Source: Fibrobacter succinogenes (GTDB lineage Bacteria; Fibrobacterota; Fibrobacteria; Fibrobacterales; Fibrobacteraceae). From it: a stretch of 64,000 nucleotides of DNA. Positions within the stretch are counted from its first letter, which is position 1; each line of letters opens with the position of its first letter. The position numbers were made by a program, and so were the translations under genes. Below are positions 2,345 through 64,000 of the stretch, in pieces. Below the pieces are notes generated by a model. It ran no database searches. It was not told the DNA's origin and saw only the letters and a list, made by a program, of their open reading frames with translations. The stretch is taken from positions 1 through 64,000 of the forward strand of contig CACWPM010000012.1 of the NCBI GenBank assembly GCA_902762795.1, in the 5' to 3' direction.

Positions 2345-3170
2345 CTATTTCCGAACGGACTTTACTTCAGCAGTCTTTTTCAATCGTCTTTCAACCTTTT
2401 TGACATCCTCGCCTGCCGGCAACTTTTCAGGAACGATGCCGCGATCAAGCAACATCTTGCGGACTGCACGATTGTTGTCCACATGTTCCTTTTCAATTTT
2501 CTTCTGTCCAAAAAGATTTTTGGTTTGCGTTTTGACAGACGTCATTTCAGCAGCAAGGTCCTTGGCCTTGATACTGACTGTCGGCAAAAAATCTGCCAAC
2601 GGACGACTTGCAGGAACATTATACTTGCGCTTAAGCAAATTCGTATCAATATTGAACAAAGCTTGATCACCCTTCGAACGAATAATAGCGAACCCCTTGC
2701 TATCTACGCCGCGTTCAAACAAGACTCCAGAAAGAATCTTCTCTGTCTGTGCAAGTTTTGCACGAGCCTGAACGCGTTCAAGTTCATGGATACGAGTTTC
2801 TACAATTTCAGCAACACGGGTCTGAACAGCAAAATAATTCTGTACAAAGGAAATTTCTGGCTTGCGGGAATCACCGTTCTGCGCAATCAAATAACAAGCA
2901 TAGCGAGAAAGCATGTAATCATCTACTTCACGCCTTGCACCCTTAGCAAGATTGATCATTTTCCCCACGCGGGGAAAATGATCCTCAGAAAGTTCTCCCG
3001 CATTATCACAGGCTTCTTTTGCCTTGTCAACCACATTCAAAAATTTTTTCCCACTTGCTATACCCAAGCAATACAGCAAGTTCGCGAGCGCTCCAGCATT
3101 CAATGCCTTCGTATTCGCATGCAATTTGTTCAAACTTGTTGAACAGTTCCTTGATTTCATTAGACTTCAT
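2345..3170 (-). pseudogene. dinD: DNA-damage-inducible protein D (DinD), +1 frameshift
   Basis: The start ATG at 3170 has GGAGG five nt upstream. Frame 1 gives MKSNEIKELFNKFEQIAC...ECWSARELAVLLGYSKWEK. A T6 run on the + strand (3044-3049; A6 in the gene) then shifts the frame, and the rest reads FLNVVDKAKEAC, ...VDDYMLSRYACYLIAQNGD, NYFAVQTR and so on, the conserved DinD body. Deleting one base rejoins GYSKWEKFLNVVDKAKEAC, and the total is about 274 residues, the length of E. coli DinD. The gap is a single homopolymer base, so a sequencing indel is a serious alternative to true inactivation. DinD is SOS-induced in E. coli and inhibits RecA filament activity. Confidence 0.85.
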
Positions 3171-3187
3171 ATAGCCTCCGTTGTTAT

Positions 3188-3204
3188 GGTCGCATTTTGC
3201 GACC
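3188..3204. promoter_or_regulatory. 17-bp palindrome in the dinD leader
   Basis: GGTCGCA-TTT-TGCGACC has perfect 7-bp arms and lies 18-34 nt upstream of the dinD ATG, just outside its Shine-Dalgarno sequence. Its position suits a repressor operator or a 5'-UTR hairpin. It does not match the E. coli CTG-N10-CAG LexA box. Confidence 0.5.
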
Positions 3205-3258
3205 GGTTGATTTTTAGAGGCGTTCTTTCGCAAAGGGCCGGAAAACCCAAATAATAAA

Positions 3259-3293
3259 GAACGCACCTCGCCTTTCTTAGACGAGATGCGTTC
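3259..3293. other. Stem-loop between dinD and the 3442 gene
   Basis: GAACGCACCTCG (3259-3270) pairs with CGAGATGCGTTC (3282-3293) with one non-Watson-Crick position, around an 11-nt loop. Read on the minus strand it is followed by TTTATTATTT, so it could be a terminator or attenuator ahead of dinD. Confidence 0.45.
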
Positions 3294-3441
3294 GGGGATG
3301 CAGTAATTGTATCTATATTTTACAACCGTGGCAAGGGGGGAGAAAAAAATTTACATTTCAACCCAATACATGAATGAGCGGCCAACAAATAAAGTATATT
3401 ATAAACTACTACAATTTTCAAAAACTCAGAGACACCTGATT

Positions 3442-4137
3442 ATGCCTATTTCGTTAGACAATTTTAAAAACGGAATGGAACGTCTTGATGTAAGAGACTT
3501 CCACAAGAAAAAGATTTGGCACGGTTTTGAATTTTTCAAGTCAGACCGGAAAAAAGGCGTTAAGGTTTCCATAATTTTAGGCTATAACGAAGGCTACGAT
3601 AATTTTCATATCAATTCTTTTTTCGCTTCCCTCTATTTTAAATCTATAGAAAGCGCTCGATGTCCATTGTTGAACAAATACCATATCGTCGGCGGAAACA
3701 CAGTGTCAACTCTTACGCATTCTTTTATGAAAGAATTGGAGGGGTGTGAGCTAAGAATTTCACAGCCAGAGCACATTGACATTCTGGTAAACAAGATTCA
3801 ATGTATATTGAACGAGAAAATTTGGCCATACATCGACCAATACTCCAATATTGAAGAAGTCGCTAAAGAAATCGCATCTAAAAAGATAGATGAATTACCT
3901 TTCGACATCGCCTACGCTGGACCACACGCAGCAGCAATGCTTTTCTTGAAGCAAACAAACAACCCCGCTTATGAAGAAAAATTAATAGAAACCGTAAACG
4001 GCTTAAAGCAATACGTTATTAGCGATGTTGCTGAACACGGGTCTCTCGCCGAAGGTTCCGTCAGAGTATTGAAAATGGTCGAAGAGCAACTGCACGACGA
4101 TTTAGAAAAAGTTGGCTACGAGTTTTATAAAGGTTAA
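3442..4137 (+). CDS. Conserved-looking protein of unknown function (231 aa)
   Basis: I do not recognise the family. The frame is open from 3307, but a TATATT-type box at about 3396 and the lack of a ribosome site at the earlier ATGs favour the ATG at 3442 (MPISLDNFKNGMERLDVRDF). The product has no signal peptide or membrane segment and reads as a soluble mixed alpha/beta protein (KKIWHGFEFFKSDRKKG, VSIILGYNEGYDNFHINSFFASLYF). It sits among defence and toxin-antitoxin genes and shares their AT-rich composition. An immunity or DUF4304-like protein is possible but unsupported. Confidence 0.6.
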   Translation: MPISLDNFKNGMERLDVRDFHKKKIWHGFEFFKSDRKKGVKVSIILGYNEGYDNFHINSFFASLYFKSIESARCPLLNKYHIVGGNTVSTLTHSFMKELEGCELRISQPEHIDILVNKIQCILNEKIWPYIDQYSNIEEVAKEIASKKIDELPFDIAYAGPHAAAMLFLKQTNNPAYEEKLIETVNGLKQYVISDVAEHGSLAEGSVRVLKMVEEQLHDDLEKVGYEFYKG

Positions 4138-5648: not shown

Positions 5649-6049
5649 ATGCTCACCTCACCCATTGACAACATTCTCGTAGAAAAGGCGAAGCGCCAAA
5701 TGCACTTGCGCAACGGCGAGAGTGTTGTCAAGACGTACAGAATTTCATTGGGCAAGAATCCTGTGGGAGCGAAGGTCAAATCCGGCGACAACAAGACGCC
5801 CGAGGGCAATTATACCATCGAAAAGCACAACCCCAAAAGCAAATTCCATTTATCGCTGAAGGTTTCGTACCCAAACGCGGAGCAAATCAAGGCCGCGAAA
5901 AAAGGCAACTACGAGCCCGGTGGCGACATCATGATCCACGGCTACCCGAACAAGGTTCCCGCATTCCTCTTTAAATTCTGGCACAAGTGGAAAGACTGGA
6001 AATTTACGAAGCCGTCAAAGACGGCACGCCGATAACCATCAAGCCTTAG
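5649..6049 (+). pseudogene. Decayed L,D-transpeptidase-like (YkuD) gene, copy 2
   Basis: Near-identical DNA to copy 1 starts exactly at the internal Met codon (5649 matches 4249), so this copy has no signal peptide. The frame runs to WHKWKDWK and is then shifted, ending at 6035. In the neighbouring frame the DNA still encodes YEAVKDGTPITIKP and a stop at 6047-6049, the normal family C-terminus. The deletion again removes the expected catalytic DGC segment. The two copies have different deletion endpoints in the same place. Confidence 0.7.
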
Positions 6050-6189
6050 AATGCCGGGTTTTAGGGCGGAGCCCTCGGCGAAGGGGTAACGGAAGATACT
6101 AGGAGATGGCGGCTCAAGGCCACCATGACGATGCAGCTACAGCGACCTTTGGACACTTGTCCTTTGAGCCCTCCCACTTTCCAATTTCA
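6036..6189. other. Intergenic stretch with small hairpins
   Basis: After the second L,D-transpeptidase copy there is no gene. AGGGCGGAGCCCT, TGGCGGCTCAAGGCCACCA and an imperfect repeat around CCTTTGGACACTTGTCCTTTG can each fold locally. No function is evident. Confidence 0.4.
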
Positions 6190-6220
6190 AAAAAAGGCAT
6201 CCTGGTTAAAAGCCTTTTTT
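6190..6220 (+). terminator. Terminator in a repeated terminator-promoter cassette
   Basis: AAAAAAGGC and GCCTTTTTT arms enclose ATCCTGGTTAAAA. Immediately after comes GTATTATATTATAT, a likely promoter for the 6281 lipoprotein gene. The same arrangement recurs at 8580-8655 and, in shorter form, at 7836-7875. Confidence 0.7.
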
Positions 6221-6280
6221 GTATTATATTATATGCAATGTAGCAGAACAAATATTTGTTAGAAAACGAGATAAAACCAA

Positions 6281-7126
6281 ATGATTAAGAAGATTTTATT
6301 TGCAACATTTTTCATCATCTTGGCGGCTTGCGACAACCCAAACCAGCTGAAAGAAGCCAGCAAGGATTTTACTCCGTCTAAGGACTTGCTCCTTGCCGAC
6401 TATATTGCCTCCGCAGATTCGATGGCTGTTTTTTCTTGCGGCGATCCTGAGCCATCTTTCGCATCGCGCTTAAAAAAAGACTTTGACGAATTTGCCAAAG
6501 CAATGGCTTTCAAAGAGAAAAAAGAATGCCGTGGAATTTGTTGGGACAAGCAATGGCCTGCATATTATGTAGAACTTTATCGTAACGGAACACCAATTGA
6601 CACGACAGAAATTTACGCAACGGTTTCTAAGCACGGTTTTAAAAAGAACGGATATAACTACTATTTTACCGACACGTCTAAGGCAAAAGTTTTTTTCGAG
6701 TCTCGTAAAATTCAAAGAATTCCCTGGGGATGCCGACAGATGCACTGGCCCAAAGAGGACTGCGGTACACCCTGCCGCTCCATAGAAATCGAAGATGTAC
6801 AACTATACGACTCTACCGGACAATCATTACCCGATTCCGTTTATCAAGAATTTGCAGAACGAGTAAAACAGAAATATTTGCTTTTCTATGCGCAATTCAG
6901 TGTTCAACAAAAAATTCAACTAGACATGGACTGCGAAATAGAAATGACAGTCAACAATCAGTTCGTCTCGCACTTTTCAATCAAATCCACGCCCCAAATA
7001 GACTCATTTGAAAAACATATAACAGAAAATTGGGAAGTTATTTGCGATGAATGCAACAAGGAAATGCGTTCCGTTAAATTCAAAATGAAATTTAAAAAGT
7101 CCCCCAAAAGGGGGACAGAAAAGTGA
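6281..7126 (+). CDS. Lipoprotein of unknown function (281 aa)
   Basis: Signal peptide with lipobox LAAC at about residues 14-17 (MIKKILFATFFIILAACDN), so a lipid-anchored envelope protein. The mature part has many Cys residues (VFSCGDP, KECRGICWD, PWGCRQMH, EDCGTPCRS, EVICDECNK), suggesting disulfides or a metal site. No family recognised. The last codons (KSPKRGTEK) lie over a perfect hairpin GTCCCCC-AAAA-GGGGGAC (7099-7116), which may protect or terminate the transcript despite lacking a T tract. Confidence 0.75.
   Translation: MIKKILFATFFIILAACDNPNQLKEASKDFTPSKDLLLADYIASADSMAVFSCGDPEPSFASRLKKDFDEFAKAMAFKEKKECRGICWDKQWPAYYVELYRNGTPIDTTEIYATVSKHGFKKNGYNYYFTDTSKAKVFFESRKIQRIPWGCRQMHWPKEDCGTPCRSIEIEDVQLYDSTGQSLPDSVYQEFAERVKQKYLLFYAQFSVQQKIQLDMDCEIEMTVNNQFVSHFSIKSTPQIDSFEKHITENWEVICDECNKEMRSVKFKMKFKKSPKRGTEK
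7099..7116. other. Perfect G/C hairpin spanning the end of a coding region
   Basis: GTCCCCC-AAAA-GGGGGAC, 7-bp arms, 8 nt before the stop codon of the 6281 gene. No T run follows. Confidence 0.6.
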
Positions 7127-7151
7127 GGAATAAAGCAGCGCTCACTTCGCT

Positions 7152-7511
7152 TTATTCATCCAAGCAGGAATTGACTTCAGCGGCCGCTCCATAGTAATAG
7201 GCAACTATACCGCCGCCCTGGTTGCACTTTTTTCCTCCGGCGGGACATCCCGAGCCCAAAGTGGCCTTAGAGACGCCTTCTATATTTTGCGCATCACAGG
7301 TTTCCTTGAATTTATCCGTAGTCTTATAAGATGTCGGAACCTCGGAACAAGACGCGGAACCGTTCCCACCAGGCAATTCCACATAGCATGAAACGACGCT
7401 ACCGGATCCTGTCCCATCAGACCCAGAAGAGGCACTGTCATCGCAGCCGTAGAATGCGAAACTGACAGCAGTCACGACCGCCATCGCCAATAAAGCTTTT
7501 CTTGTTTTCAT
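7152..7511 (-). CDS. Small Cys-rich lipoprotein (119 aa)
   Basis: ATG at 7511 with AGAGGG seven nt upstream. Signal peptide with lipobox FYGC (about residues 19-22), then an acidic Ser/Gly linker (DDSASSGSDGTGSGS) and a mature domain with six Cys (VVSCYVEL, SASCSEVP, ETCDAQN, GSGCPAGGKKC, VNSCLDE). Envelope-attached; function unknown. Convergent with the 6281 lipoprotein, 25 bp apart. Confidence 0.75.
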   Translation of the reverse strand: MKTRKALLAMAVVTAVSFAFYGCDDSASSGSDGTGSGSVVSCYVELPGGNGSASCSEVPTSYKTTDKFKETCDAQNIEGVSKATLGSGCPAGGKKCNQGGGIVAYYYGAAAEVNSCLDE

Positions 7512-7630
7512 ATGAGCCCTCTTTTTGATAATAGATTTGTAATTAAAATATAATCTTTTTCATATTAGAAAGGAGTCAACAAAAATTTTTCCAGAACCCT
7601 ACTGAGCCCCCTTCATATAGCGAACAGCAA

Positions 7631-7740
7631 AAAGCACTTGCGTCACGGTAATAATGTTGTCGAGACGTACAGAATTTCAATGGGCAAGAATTCGGCGCTT
7701 CTTTTTAATATCGGCACAAGCAAAAAGACTGGACCACTAG
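7631..7740 (+). pseudogene. Third, heavily deleted L,D-transpeptidase-like fragment
   Basis: The DNA matches the 4165 and 5649 copies in two blocks: the GCACTTGCG...GTTGTCGAGACGTACAGAATTTC...GGGCAAGAAT region, and a block matching CTCTTTAAATTCTGGCACAAG...AAAGACTGGACC. The intervening several hundred bases are missing. No open frame remains. Confidence 0.65.
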
Positions 7741-7842
7741 CAAGTTATTACCGAGCCTAAGCCGCCAAGCGCTTTGCGCAATGACAAAGGCGTATTGGGA
7801 CTTGAGCGAAGCGAAAGAGCAACGCTTTCCCTTTTCAAAAAA

Positions 7843-7869
7843 GTCCAAGTTAAAAGTTTGGGCATTTTT
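7843..7869 (+). terminator. Hairpin with T run ahead of the 7927 gene
   Basis: GTCCAA (7843-7848) pairs with TTGGGC (7858-7863) with one G-T pair, then ATTTTT. Its GTTAAAAG loop matches the hairpins at 6190 and 8587. Confidence 0.5.
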
Positions 7870-7926
7870 ATTATGCACGTTCACGATTGTCAAAAAAAAA
7901 CTATATTCGGGTACAAAGGATTTATC

Positions 7927-8550
7927 ATGAAAATTTCAACTGTTATTTCTACACTGAGCATCATCACACTTATCGGCTGCGCAAGCGGCCCCCGTCAACG
8001 CAGCATCAACGAAATCCCGGAATACGGCAATCAGCCCAAGAGCCAGGAATTGCAGCAAGCAGACCAGCAATTTTTAAACACCGTCAAAGGCAAGGAAAAA
8101 GAATCTTTTGACTACATGATGAATGTAGGATGGTCCTTTTTCAAACGTGGCGATATCGGGACCGCCATCAAGCGCTTCAACCAGGCATGGCTCATCGATT
8201 CTACCCGCTACGAGTCCTACTGGGGTTTTGCCGCCGCCGAAGGCCGTCTGAACAACCTCGAAACATCTAAGCATTATTACGAGAAAGCTCTTAACCACGG
8301 AGGCGATACCAAAATTCTGAATCCGGAATACGCCATCGTGCTCCGCGAACAAGCCAAGGCCGAAAACAACAGCGAAAAACTCGCCGAAGCGGACAACCTG
8401 TTCAAAAGCGAAATCGAAGCAGGCAACGAAAAAGCCGCCTGCATTTACGCCTACCAGCTTTTCCGCGAAAACAAGAAAGATGAAGCCTGCCAAATCATGG
8501 CATCTTGCCCAGATGATAAAGACAATCTGAAAAAAATATGCAGGATGTAG
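7927..8550 (+). CDS. TPR lipoprotein (207 aa)
   Basis: The ATG at 7927 (AAAGGA about 7 nt upstream) starts a lipoprotein signal MKISTVISTLSIITLIGC, lipobox LIGC. The mature protein has tetratricopeptide-like helices: DYMMNVGWSFFKRGDIGTAI, YWGFAAAEGRLNNLETSKHY and a Cys-containing C-terminal repeat (NEKAACIYAYQLFRENKKDE). It is likely a scaffold for envelope proteins; partner unknown. Followed by a clear terminator. Confidence 0.78.
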   Translation: MKISTVISTLSIITLIGCASGPRQRSINEIPEYGNQPKSQELQQADQQFLNTVKGKEKESFDYMMNVGWSFFKRGDIGTAIKRFNQAWLIDSTRYESYWGFAAAEGRLNNLETSKHYYEKALNHGGDTKILNPEYAIVLREQAKAENNSEKLAEADNLFKSEIEAGNEKAACIYAYQLFRENKKDEACQIMASCPDDKDNLKKICRM

Positions 8551-8579
8551 CAGATTCTAGGGAGGAACCCATACCCCTT

Positions 8580-8655
8580 TTCAAAAGCGTCCAGGTTAAA
8601 AGTCTGGGCGTTTTTTGTATTATATCATATACAACGTAGAATAAATACTTGTAAA
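8580..8655 (+). repeat. Duplicated terminator-promoter cassette (second copy of 6186-6262)
   Basis: About 75 bp are similar in both places: TTCAAAA, a hairpin with loop GTTAAAAG, T6, GTATTATAT(T/C)ATAT(G/A)CAA(T/C)GTAG and a tail AATA(T/C)TTGT. The upstream copy leads into the 6281 gene. This copy leads into a gene remnant, so the cassette seems to have been carried with the 5' flank of a gene. Confidence 0.55.
8587..8616 (+). terminator. Terminator of the TPR lipoprotein gene
   Basis: CGTCCAG (8588-8594) pairs with CTGGGCG (8604-8610) around GTTAAAAGT, followed by T6. Part of the duplicated terminator-promoter cassette. Confidence 0.75.
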
Positions 8656-8666
8656 AAAAGAGATGA

Positions 8667-8867
8667 GCATTTCGTAAAGCCCGCCATGTCATACGATATA
8701 TTCGTCAGCGAGCTCCAAACTTCCGCCACATCTATTACAAACATTTAAAAAACAAAGCATACTTTGAAGGTTCTATTACCGTAAAATTCACGATTGAGCC
8801 AAATGGGAATGTTGTTCTTTTGCTCGCAAAAAGGGGCAAAATGCGAAAATGTGCTACCAAATGCTAA
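8667..8867 (+). pseudogene. Remnant of an AgmX/TonB-C-terminal-domain protein
   Basis: No start codon, but a continuous frame reads RKARHVIRYIRQRAPNFRHI, then YYKHLKNKAYFEGSITVKFT and IEPNGNVV. This matches the AgmX/PglI-type C-terminal domain pattern R.IYNK.LK...F.GKVTLKFTI.P.G.V. It is preceded by an in-frame TGA (8664-8666) and truncated after GNVV. Its 3' end runs straight into the inverted-repeat array starting at 8850. Both ends of the gene are missing. Confidence 0.6.
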
Positions 8868-9070
8868 AAAAATCTTTGTTCGGTAGCACATTTTACACAC
8901 AAAATAAGTATTTTTCTCAAAAAATTTGAAATCATACCGCAGATTATGCGACCAAACTGGTAAAAAAAGTAAATTCAGTAACACATAAACCGTCCGTACA
9001 ACTGAAATTTCATCAAACAAAGTAAAAAACATGTTACCAAAGCATCAAAAAACAGGGATTTGGTACCACA
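8850..9070. repeat. Phased 41-bp inverted-repeat array A (3 units)
   Basis: Units at 8850-8890, 8945-8985 and 9030-9070, each exactly 41 bp: TGTGCTACCAAA...GGTAGCACA; TATGCGACCAAA...AGTAACACA; CATGTTACCAAA...TTTGGTACCACA. Unit starts are 95 and 85 bp apart. The 17-nt centres contain an A tract. The array ends 88 bp before the start of the 9159 gene. Arms and spacing match array C (63810) in sequence and array B (48797) in geometry. Confidence 0.8.
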
Positions 9071-9158
9071 AAATCGCAAAATTCGCTCTGCAAGGAAGAA
9101 TAACTTCCATAAAAAACGTTAATTTTACTACGACCTTTTATGTTAAGGATCATTCGTT

Positions 9159-10151
9159 ATGAAAAAAAACATTTGGATTGCAGTTTATTGTTCTCTTGCT
9201 CTATGTGTCATAGCTTTAATAGTCTTTCACGAAAAAATTTTACATAAACTAGATGATACGGGAATCATCGTCGATTCGCTTCATGAATTCAACGATGATG
9301 ACGAACACAGTTTAGCAATAAATTTAGGAGAACTCAAGCTTTGGCCCATGTCCGCAGGAAAATTTTTCTCCATAAGGTATTCTCTCGATGCAGACGCCAT
9401 GGGCGGATATGCCCTCGATTTCACTTGCGAAACGCCCGATTTTTCAAAATGCAATAAGACAGTTTCCAACAAGAACAGCCTTGGCGACGATATACAAAAA
9501 ACAGTCGAGCCGATTGCTTCACACGAAGCCAAAACCATCTACGATGAATTTACCGCTTTGGATGTTTTCAACTTAAAGTCCGTTGAATCGCGACCTTTAG
9601 GTGAAAATTTAGGCGTTCGACTGGGAATATACCCTTCCGCTTCATTCTCCCTTGTCAGCGTTTCTGTTGAAGTTTCAGACGACAAGCGCCTGAACCGTTT
9701 TTTCATTGTGCCCGGCAAACATAAAGACGAGCGATACATCAAGATTTTCAAAATTTTCAAGAATCACGGCTTTTTGCCAGAAGAAACGAAAAAGAACACA
9801 AGCAACAACGCAGACTCCAAGGCCATAGAAAAAATCCAGACGTTCTACAGCAGACATATTTTCGGGAACGAGTTCGCGAACGATTCCGTCATTGCAAAGT
9901 ATTGCACGAAAGGGCTCGCCCAAGAACTTTCAAAAGCCTACGACAACGAATTCATCGACGGCGGCGGCTACGCCGTCTGGAAGTTCCGCAGCAACGCGCA
10001 GGATGGCGAGGACATCCAGGAAGTCGAAAAGATCGAACCTCTAGGCGATGGCAAATACCTCGTCCATTACAACGACATGGGCAACAAAGGAACGCACACC
10101 ATCACCATCGTCCAGCAAGACGGCGAGATTTTCTTTGACAAGCTAGATTAA
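9159..10151 (+). CDS. Membrane-anchored protein with DUF3828-like C-terminus (330 aa)
   Basis: One N-terminal membrane segment (about residues 5-25, IWIAVYCSLALCVIALIVF) with the bulk outside the cytoplasm. The C-terminal 110 residues (KAIEKIQTFYSRHIFGNEF, KYCTKGLAQELSKAYDNEF, LGDGKYLVHYNDMGNKGTH) resemble DUF3828/YbjP-like domains, which start with a helix around FY, contain a 'lt..L...l..ay' helix and end in a strand pair; this assignment is tentative. AAGGA lies about 10 nt upstream of the ATG. Inverted-repeat array A lies directly upstream. The stop overlaps the convergent 10148 gene by 4 bp. Confidence 0.65.
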   Translation: MKKNIWIAVYCSLALCVIALIVFHEKILHKLDDTGIIVDSLHEFNDDDEHSLAINLGELKLWPMSAGKFFSIRYSLDADAMGGYALDFTCETPDFSKCNKTVSNKNSLGDDIQKTVEPIASHEAKTIYDEFTALDVFNLKSVESRPLGENLGVRLGIYPSASFSLVSVSVEVSDDKRLNRFFIVPGKHKDERYIKIFKIFKNHGFLPEETKKNTSNNADSKAIEKIQTFYSRHIFGNEFANDSVIAKYCTKGLAQELSKAYDNEFIDGGGYAVWKFRSNAQDGEDIQEVEKIEPLGDGKYLVHYNDMGNKGTHTITIVQQDGEIFFDKLD

Positions 10152-48796: not shown

Positions 48797-49007
48797 TTAC
48801 GTACTTTTCGGACTCCAAACGAGCTGTTAGTACGTAATCCAAGGGGTGTTAATTTGTATTAACCCATGTTTTTTGCCGTATTTACGTACTAAAAGGCAAA
48901 AAATATAGCGTTCAGTACGTAAAATCAACCATCGAGCAGTTAATTTACATGCAAAAAAAGGCTTTTTTACGTACTAAAAGCCCCTTAAAACCACCTCAAG
49001 TACGTAA
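48797..49007. repeat. Phased 41-bp inverted-repeat array B (3 units)
   Basis: Units at 48797-48837, 48882-48922 and 48967-49007. Every unit is TTACGTACT-N23-AGTACGTAA with perfect 9-bp arms in all three. Starts are exactly 85 bp apart; spacers between units are exactly 44 bp and differ in sequence. The array ends 69 bp before the endonuclease gene start. Geometry is identical to arrays A and C although the outer arm sequence differs. Confidence 0.92.
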
Positions 49008-63809: not shown

Positions 63810-64000
63810 TGTGCTACCAAATTGTGCATTTTTTTAATTTTGGCAACACATTTTTTACTTTATCTACACCATTTTTACAAGGGTCCAGCGATTTTGTGCT
63901 ACCAAATTTGCATTTTTTCCACTTTTGGTAACACAAAACACCTCGAAAACCGTACGACAGCCCTCAAAAGTACTTAATTTGTCAAAAATTTGTGTTACCA
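63810..64000. repeat. Phased 41-bp inverted-repeat array C (2 units plus an incomplete third)
   Basis: Units at 63810-63850 (TGTGCTACCAAA...TTTGGCAACACA) and 63895-63935 (TGTGCTACCAAA...TTTGGTAACACA), 85 bp apart; a further left arm TGTGTTACCA at 63991-64000 runs off the window, 96 bp after the previous one. The centres contain GCAT followed by T6-T7. Same arm sequence as array A. Upstream of the minus-strand FGE-like lipoprotein gene. Confidence 0.85.

Follow-up and report, generated by a model that had tools for sequence, protein, structure and literature searches.

Phased palindromic arrays in Fibrobacter as probable recognition sites for a nuclease-like partner protein

Why would an intergenic stretch of a Fibrobacter chromosome carry three palindromes of equal length at regular intervals? 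The window analyzed here, 64,000 nucleotides of Fibrobacter succinogenes DNA, holds such an array at positions 8850-9070, and an earlier note on this DNA had argued that geometry is the property under selection.

Results

The array in the window

The three units that the note had described, at 8850-8890, 8945-8985, and 9030-9070, are confirmed; each is exactly 41 bp, and their starts are 95 and 85 bp apart. Their arms are TGTGCTACCAAA-like, as it had stated, and unlike the TTACGTACT arms of another array of 41-bp units at 48797-49007. The middle unit, 8945-8985, is weak, with pairing at 7 of 12 arm positions and 4 mismatches to the consensus. The features, in the orientation established below, are as follows.

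9030..9070, minus strand: U1 of the B module, CATGTTACCAAA..TTTGGTACCACA; the module is read on the minus strand
8945..8985, minus strand: U2 (weak) of the B module, 85 bp from U1
8850..8890, minus strand: U3 of the B module, TGTGCTACCAAA..TTCGGTAGCACA, 95 bp from U2
9014..9025, minus strand: conserved spacer motif after U1, TTACTTTGTTTG, from the module logo
8896..8907, minus strand: conserved spacer motif preceding U3, TTATTTTGTGTG, differing from TTAMTTTRTNYG at one position, from the module logo
8838..9082, minus strand: full conserved module, units plus ≈12 bp of T-rich flank on either side, with limits set by conservation over 52 modules
48797..49007, no strand assigned: family A array, units 48797-48837, 48882-48922, and 48967-49007, steps 85/85
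63810..64000, plus strand: second B module in the window, TGTGCTACC type, units 63810-63850, 63895-63935, and 63991-64031, the last cut by the window end

By the note's account, its reading would fail if such palindromes were common in shuffled AT-rich DNA. A scan for triples of 41-bp palindromes with similar arms, set at 85/95 steps, returned only two arrays in the window (8850-9070 and the TTACGTACT array), none in 80 × 64 kb of simulated DNA of the window's composition, and four in 80 × 64 kb of AT-rich simulated DNA. Genome-wide, 37 sites fit the pattern TGTGYTACCAAA-N17-TTTGGTARCACA with no more than three mismatches, and 0 fit its reversed form; for the family A pattern TTACGTACT-N23-AGTACGTAA, the two figures are 53 and 3.

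Two other features of the surrounding DNA deserve mention. A repeated terminator-like sequence, TTTTCAAAAgcgTCCAggTTAAAAGTcTGGGCgtttttt, stands on both sides of a lipoprotein-like ORF (7790-7870 and 8574-8624) and recurs in several Fibrobacter genomes. Positions 5999-8818, a stretch of ≈2.8 kb lying upstream of the 8838-9082 module, are missing in two related genomes (G019 and G038), whose junction lies ≈30 bp outside the module.

A rigid module at dispersed loci

Rather than standing alone, the array is a copy of a ≈245-bp module, rigid and oriented, U1-85-U2-95-U3, which we call B. It occupies ≈18 loci in the window's genome (G000) and 52 distinct places across related genomes, mostly metagenome-assembled genomes (MAGs), and over these 52 copies the 85 and 95 steps are held to within 1 bp. 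The canonical order is TTTTtgcgATTT, U1, TTTTTTACTTTGTncgta.., U2, ..GTTAATTTATncAAAAt, U3, TTTTcgcAATTT. Conservation is confined to the half-sites and the two T-rich spacer motifs and stops ≈12 nt outside the units; every unit also has a T-rich center. Named public records with the same module are Fibrobacter MAGs, and matches to the arm pattern outside this genus were discarded as isolated chance sites.

Across 148 units, the left and right half-sites vary independently, and paired positions lack covariation; a unit is therefore a site in double-stranded DNA and not a hairpin. At non-conserved positions, modules within one genome are 0.265 identical against 0.253 expected by chance, with a single duplicated pair excepted. 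That pair, at 3850-4070 and 10183-10403 of L061 (contig C4 of G000), has its members in the same orientation 6.3 kb apart, with 60% identity at unconstrained positions.

Helical phase

The note had read the 95-bp step as 85 bp plus one helical turn, and this extends well beyond the window. Family A steps (63-65, 73, 84-85, 95, 135-138, 146-147, 157, 168, and 199 bp) come out as integer multiples of 10.4-10.5 bp (R = 0.89 over unique step values; p = 0.0002 with step classes redrawn), and further families in other species have steps of 64, 84/85, 95, 106, and 137 bp. Whole-turn steps in several families thus support the proposal that geometry is selected. The arm sequence is under selection as well, family by family, tracking the partner protein described below. 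Nor is unit length fixed at 41 bp, being 40 in a related family, B′, and 42/41/42 in family C.

Probable partner genes of the arrays

The genes adjoining A and B arrays include mutual homologues belonging to a family of ≈275-aa proteins, and for A, B, B′, C, and D a gene of this family adjoins an array with the matching arms. Working without any arm sequence as input, a finder detected phased arrays at 38 of 50 gene loci, with 15 or more arm types among them, and no array at the other ≈12; its control gave 1 spurious match in 20 stretches of 20 kb (400 kb). Most of the arrays are upstream of their partner gene, and family A arrays stand on both sides of the A-type gene. For the window's genome, the B-type protein gene is outside the window, at C13:10222-11037, beside another copy of the B module. 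Three paralogues were also seen in this genome: C37:6962-7747 (L313) has its own 4-unit array with GTACCTATAAA arms and steps 63-95-85, C9:95141-96064 (L315) adjoins a TGGCGGTGAAA array, and no array was detected beside C3:124204-124992 (L314).

Genes and sites also occur together across genomes. B-type genes were found in nine of 80 Fibrobacter genomes, all nine with B or B′ modules (the B′ pattern search covered 12 genomes), and A-type genes among the same 80 are limited to G000, G001, G038, and G083, the four genomes rich in A sites. The single intact B′ module of G004 is the one adjoining its partner-family gene. Only one genome, the 88% complete MAG G019, has a module (one copy) without a B-type gene, and G006, with 8% contamination, has a B′-type gene alongside many B sites. 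The protein tree groups as the arm types do, the B/B′ split included. In rumen Fibrobacter, three or more ≈41-bp palindromic sites set whole helical turns apart make up dispersed arrays; each array type is apparently recognized by a nuclease-like protein of its own, with sites and protein changing together from species to species.

TIGR02147 proteins (Fsuc_second) were considered as the partner and rejected; they number 28-39 in every genome tested (G047, G045, G083, and others), even in one that has neither A nor B modules, and their adjacency to modules is inconsistent.

Outside the genus, the product of 3048-3850 on a human fecal contig (L280, MT839528.1) is distantly related to the partner protein, with 35% identity over 204 aa. 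It is followed at 3863-4128 by inverted GTTGC/GCAAC repeats of 34-42 bp, for example ATGCAACC..GAGTTGCAT (40 bp). The system may be present outside Fibrobacter; no relative of the protein was found in viral contigs.

The probable partner protein

The protein combines a variable N-terminal part (mean identity 32-36% vs 54%) with a C-terminal domain of PD-(D/E)XK-like type. Its C-terminal stretch of ≈115 residues is matched by PADLOC PDC-S68 at 3e-28 and, weakly, by HEAT_CxxC_PDDEXK (7e-4). Residues E166, D198, E213, and K230 do not vary among the 54 sequences compared, and the conserved acidic residues and lysine of the PD-(D/E)XK active site are present in the family; the domain is probably a nuclease domain of this kind. 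No relative was found in the PDB by sequence, and a structure prediction from two sequences only reached a pLDDT of 42. Scans with Pfam, NCBIfam, and PHROGs found no Y1 HUH tyrosine transposase domain.

Change at fixed loci

Four orthologous loci carry B arms (CTACCAAA, with units of 41 bp) in some species and B′ arms (CTACTAAA, with units of 40 bp) in others. The arm change is CCAAA to CTAAA; the units of one locus change alike, and the spacers can still be aligned. A larger exchange is seen at one locus compared between G000 and G006. The flanks are common to both and the last ≈190 residues of the protein are ≈98% identical, whereas the upstream array and the first ≈75 residues are wholly different, with GTACCTATAAA arms in G000 and TTACATACTAA arms in G006. 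Judged by these alignments, the locus is a natural joint exchange of array and N terminus, which points to the N terminus as the reader of the half-sites.

Some module loci are empty in relatives. The exonuclease VII locus, an intergenic spot between convergent genes, has a B module in G000 and G038, a TTACATACT-type element in G006, G019, and G044, and nothing in G004 and G014 (L057, L180, L181, L188, L190).

Such patchiness raises the possibility that the arrays derive from transposable elements, as their ends or remnants, and are non-autonomous copies moved by the nuclease-like protein. Variable copy number between species would fit, as would the empty loci, the spot filled by a B module or a TTACATACT element according to species, the A arrays flanking a gene, and the duplicated pair in L061. 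Recent movement should leave near-identical copies, however, and there are none: with that pair set aside, the modules of a genome resemble one another at chance level outside constrained positions. Modules moreover remain at orthologous loci while their arms change in place, and the partner genes keep to conserved loci. No target-site duplication came to light, the boundaries at the two loci with empty sites being indistinct. We regard this origin as a minority possibility, to be taken seriously but not favored. The case for gene-cassette insertion at module edges was unconvincing: 13 of 38 junctions compare with 26 of 139, and many pairs are redundant.

Placement and orientation on the chromosome

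The orientation of B and B′ modules agrees with GC skew for 16 of 16 modules in two near-complete genomes, representing ≈9-10 independent loci. Where the sign of the skew flips near 600 kb in G047, module orientation flips along with it, and in G045 the skew is followed by five modules of one contig and two of a second. When all independent loci are taken together, roughly 18 of 21 fit, the exceptions being the 8838-9082 module itself and two others. The tie to replication direction is suggestive and no stronger, since gene direction also shapes GC skew.

These observations bear on a second alternative, in which the modules are chromosome-organizing or replication-linked sites, with the protein binding along the replication axis and its nuclease domain serving chromosome handling. 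The orientation bias and the independence of modules from promoters speak for it. On the other side, families A and C have mixed orientation with no clear polarity, the module in the window and two others run against the trend, the skew itself reflects gene direction too, and B and A are wholly absent from many species. As the whole explanation of the arrays, we consider this doubtful.

A third and still less probable alternative is that the arrays are ordinary transcription factor operators for the adjacent gene. Their position, mostly upstream of the partner gene, would suit an operator, and the array in the window lies 88 bp ahead of an ORF (9159-10151) with a hydrophobic N terminus, as the note had reported in placing it before a membrane-anchored protein gene. 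That gene turns out to be nothing special, since modules are found between convergent genes too. Modules are intergenic, in divergent, tandem, and convergent settings with unrelated neighbors, and at least 5 of 17 lie between convergent genes. The convergent and tandem placement and the unrelated neighbors argue that the modules are not simply promoters. No neighbor gene is shared by non-orthologous B modules except the abundant Fib_succ_major family, and that candidate link was set aside.

Structured RNA or terminator repeats, which the intergenic inverted repeats often adjoining terminators might bring to mind, are very improbable given the lack of covariation at paired positions and of any Rfam match in the window.

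Discussion

We place a probability of roughly 0.8 on the reading that the 8850-9070 array is a dispersed copy of a recognition array for a site-specific DNA-binding, nuclease-like protein, which would assemble a complex over the module as part of a persistent, vertically inherited protein-repeat system. This reading draws directly on the module's anatomy and phasing, its independent half-sites, the adjacency of genes and arrays, their matching presence and absence, the matching trees, and the swap of array and N terminus; from these patterns, we infer binding, dimers, and a complex. The variable N-terminal part would probably read the half-sites, with one dimer on the two inverted half-sites of each ≈41-bp unit. 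Because the units sit whole helical turns apart, the dimers would stack along a single DNA face, forming one complex over ≈220 bp, with A/T-rich stretches in between. The genus would hold many paralogous protein-array pairs in which sites and protein co-evolve, and arms and unit length would change in concert at fixed loci because they must stay matched to the protein.

In its logic, the nearest known system appears to be REPIN-RAYT. RAYTs are single-copy, vertically inherited genes linked to dispersed palindromic repeats (PMC8049555). The two systems share a single-copy inherited enzyme gene with dispersed palindromic repeats, and a repeat type proper to each enzyme lineage (PMC3116915, PMC8049555, PMC3686654). 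When this likeness was tested, the Fibrobacter gene was indeed found beside repeats of the matching type, further copies of which are dispersed elsewhere. The Fibrobacter protein, however, is PD-(D/E)XK-like, whereas RAYT is a tyrosine transposase; the Fibrobacter repeats form multi-unit arrays of phased sites in double-stranded DNA, with no hairpin covariation; and their copies number in the tens and are not near-identical, whereas REPINs number in the hundreds. Because enzyme and repeat anatomy both differ, the Fibrobacter system is not a member of the REPIN-RAYT group.

Other systems offer partial likenesses. The res sites of serine resolvases consist of three inverted-repeat dimer sites, oriented and at fixed spacing. 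The Fibrobacter module likewise has three oriented inverted-repeat units at fixed spacing, but these are 8-10 turns apart, of equal length, and without a conserved crossover core, and the partner lacks a serine recombinase domain and has dispersed copies of its sites. Ter, parS, matS, and KOPS are dispersed chromosomal signposts, of which Ter and KOPS are oriented with replication. The Fibrobacter sites are also dispersed, and B/B′ modules share that orientation; they differ in forming phased arrays of several units, in having more than one arm type within a genome and a specificity that changes fast, and in their nuclease-like partner. The C-terminal ≈115 residues of the protein are homologous to PADLOC PDC-S68 and HEAT_CxxC_PDDEXK, but there the domain ends proteins of ≈1200 aa or a HEAT protein, whereas in Fibrobacter it is joined to a short variable N terminus and encoded beside arrays. 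A CRISPR array was rejected, as only half-sites are conserved, unit interiors differ, and no cas family occurs among the scanned neighbors.

Our preferred reading, by analogy, remains a persistent, vertically inherited protein-repeat system that would work in a REPIN-RAYT-like manner with a different enzyme. Replication-linked chromosome handling, past mobility, and autoregulation are also possible. A limited search of the open-access literature found no published description of such arrays. We lean slightly toward regarding them as a previously undescribed two-part system of fast-diversifying short nuclease-like proteins and their own phased palindromic arrays, in which specificity would change by swapping N terminus and array, and which would serve a chromosome-level task that is aligned with replication in one family.

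The 15 or more arm types form a natural protein-DNA series in which half-site, unit length, and spacing have changed with the protein, and this series lets DNA recognition and helical phasing be studied comparatively. It also raises the question of why rumen bacteria retain tens of intact arrays for a nuclease-like protein at fixed places, following each change in that protein.
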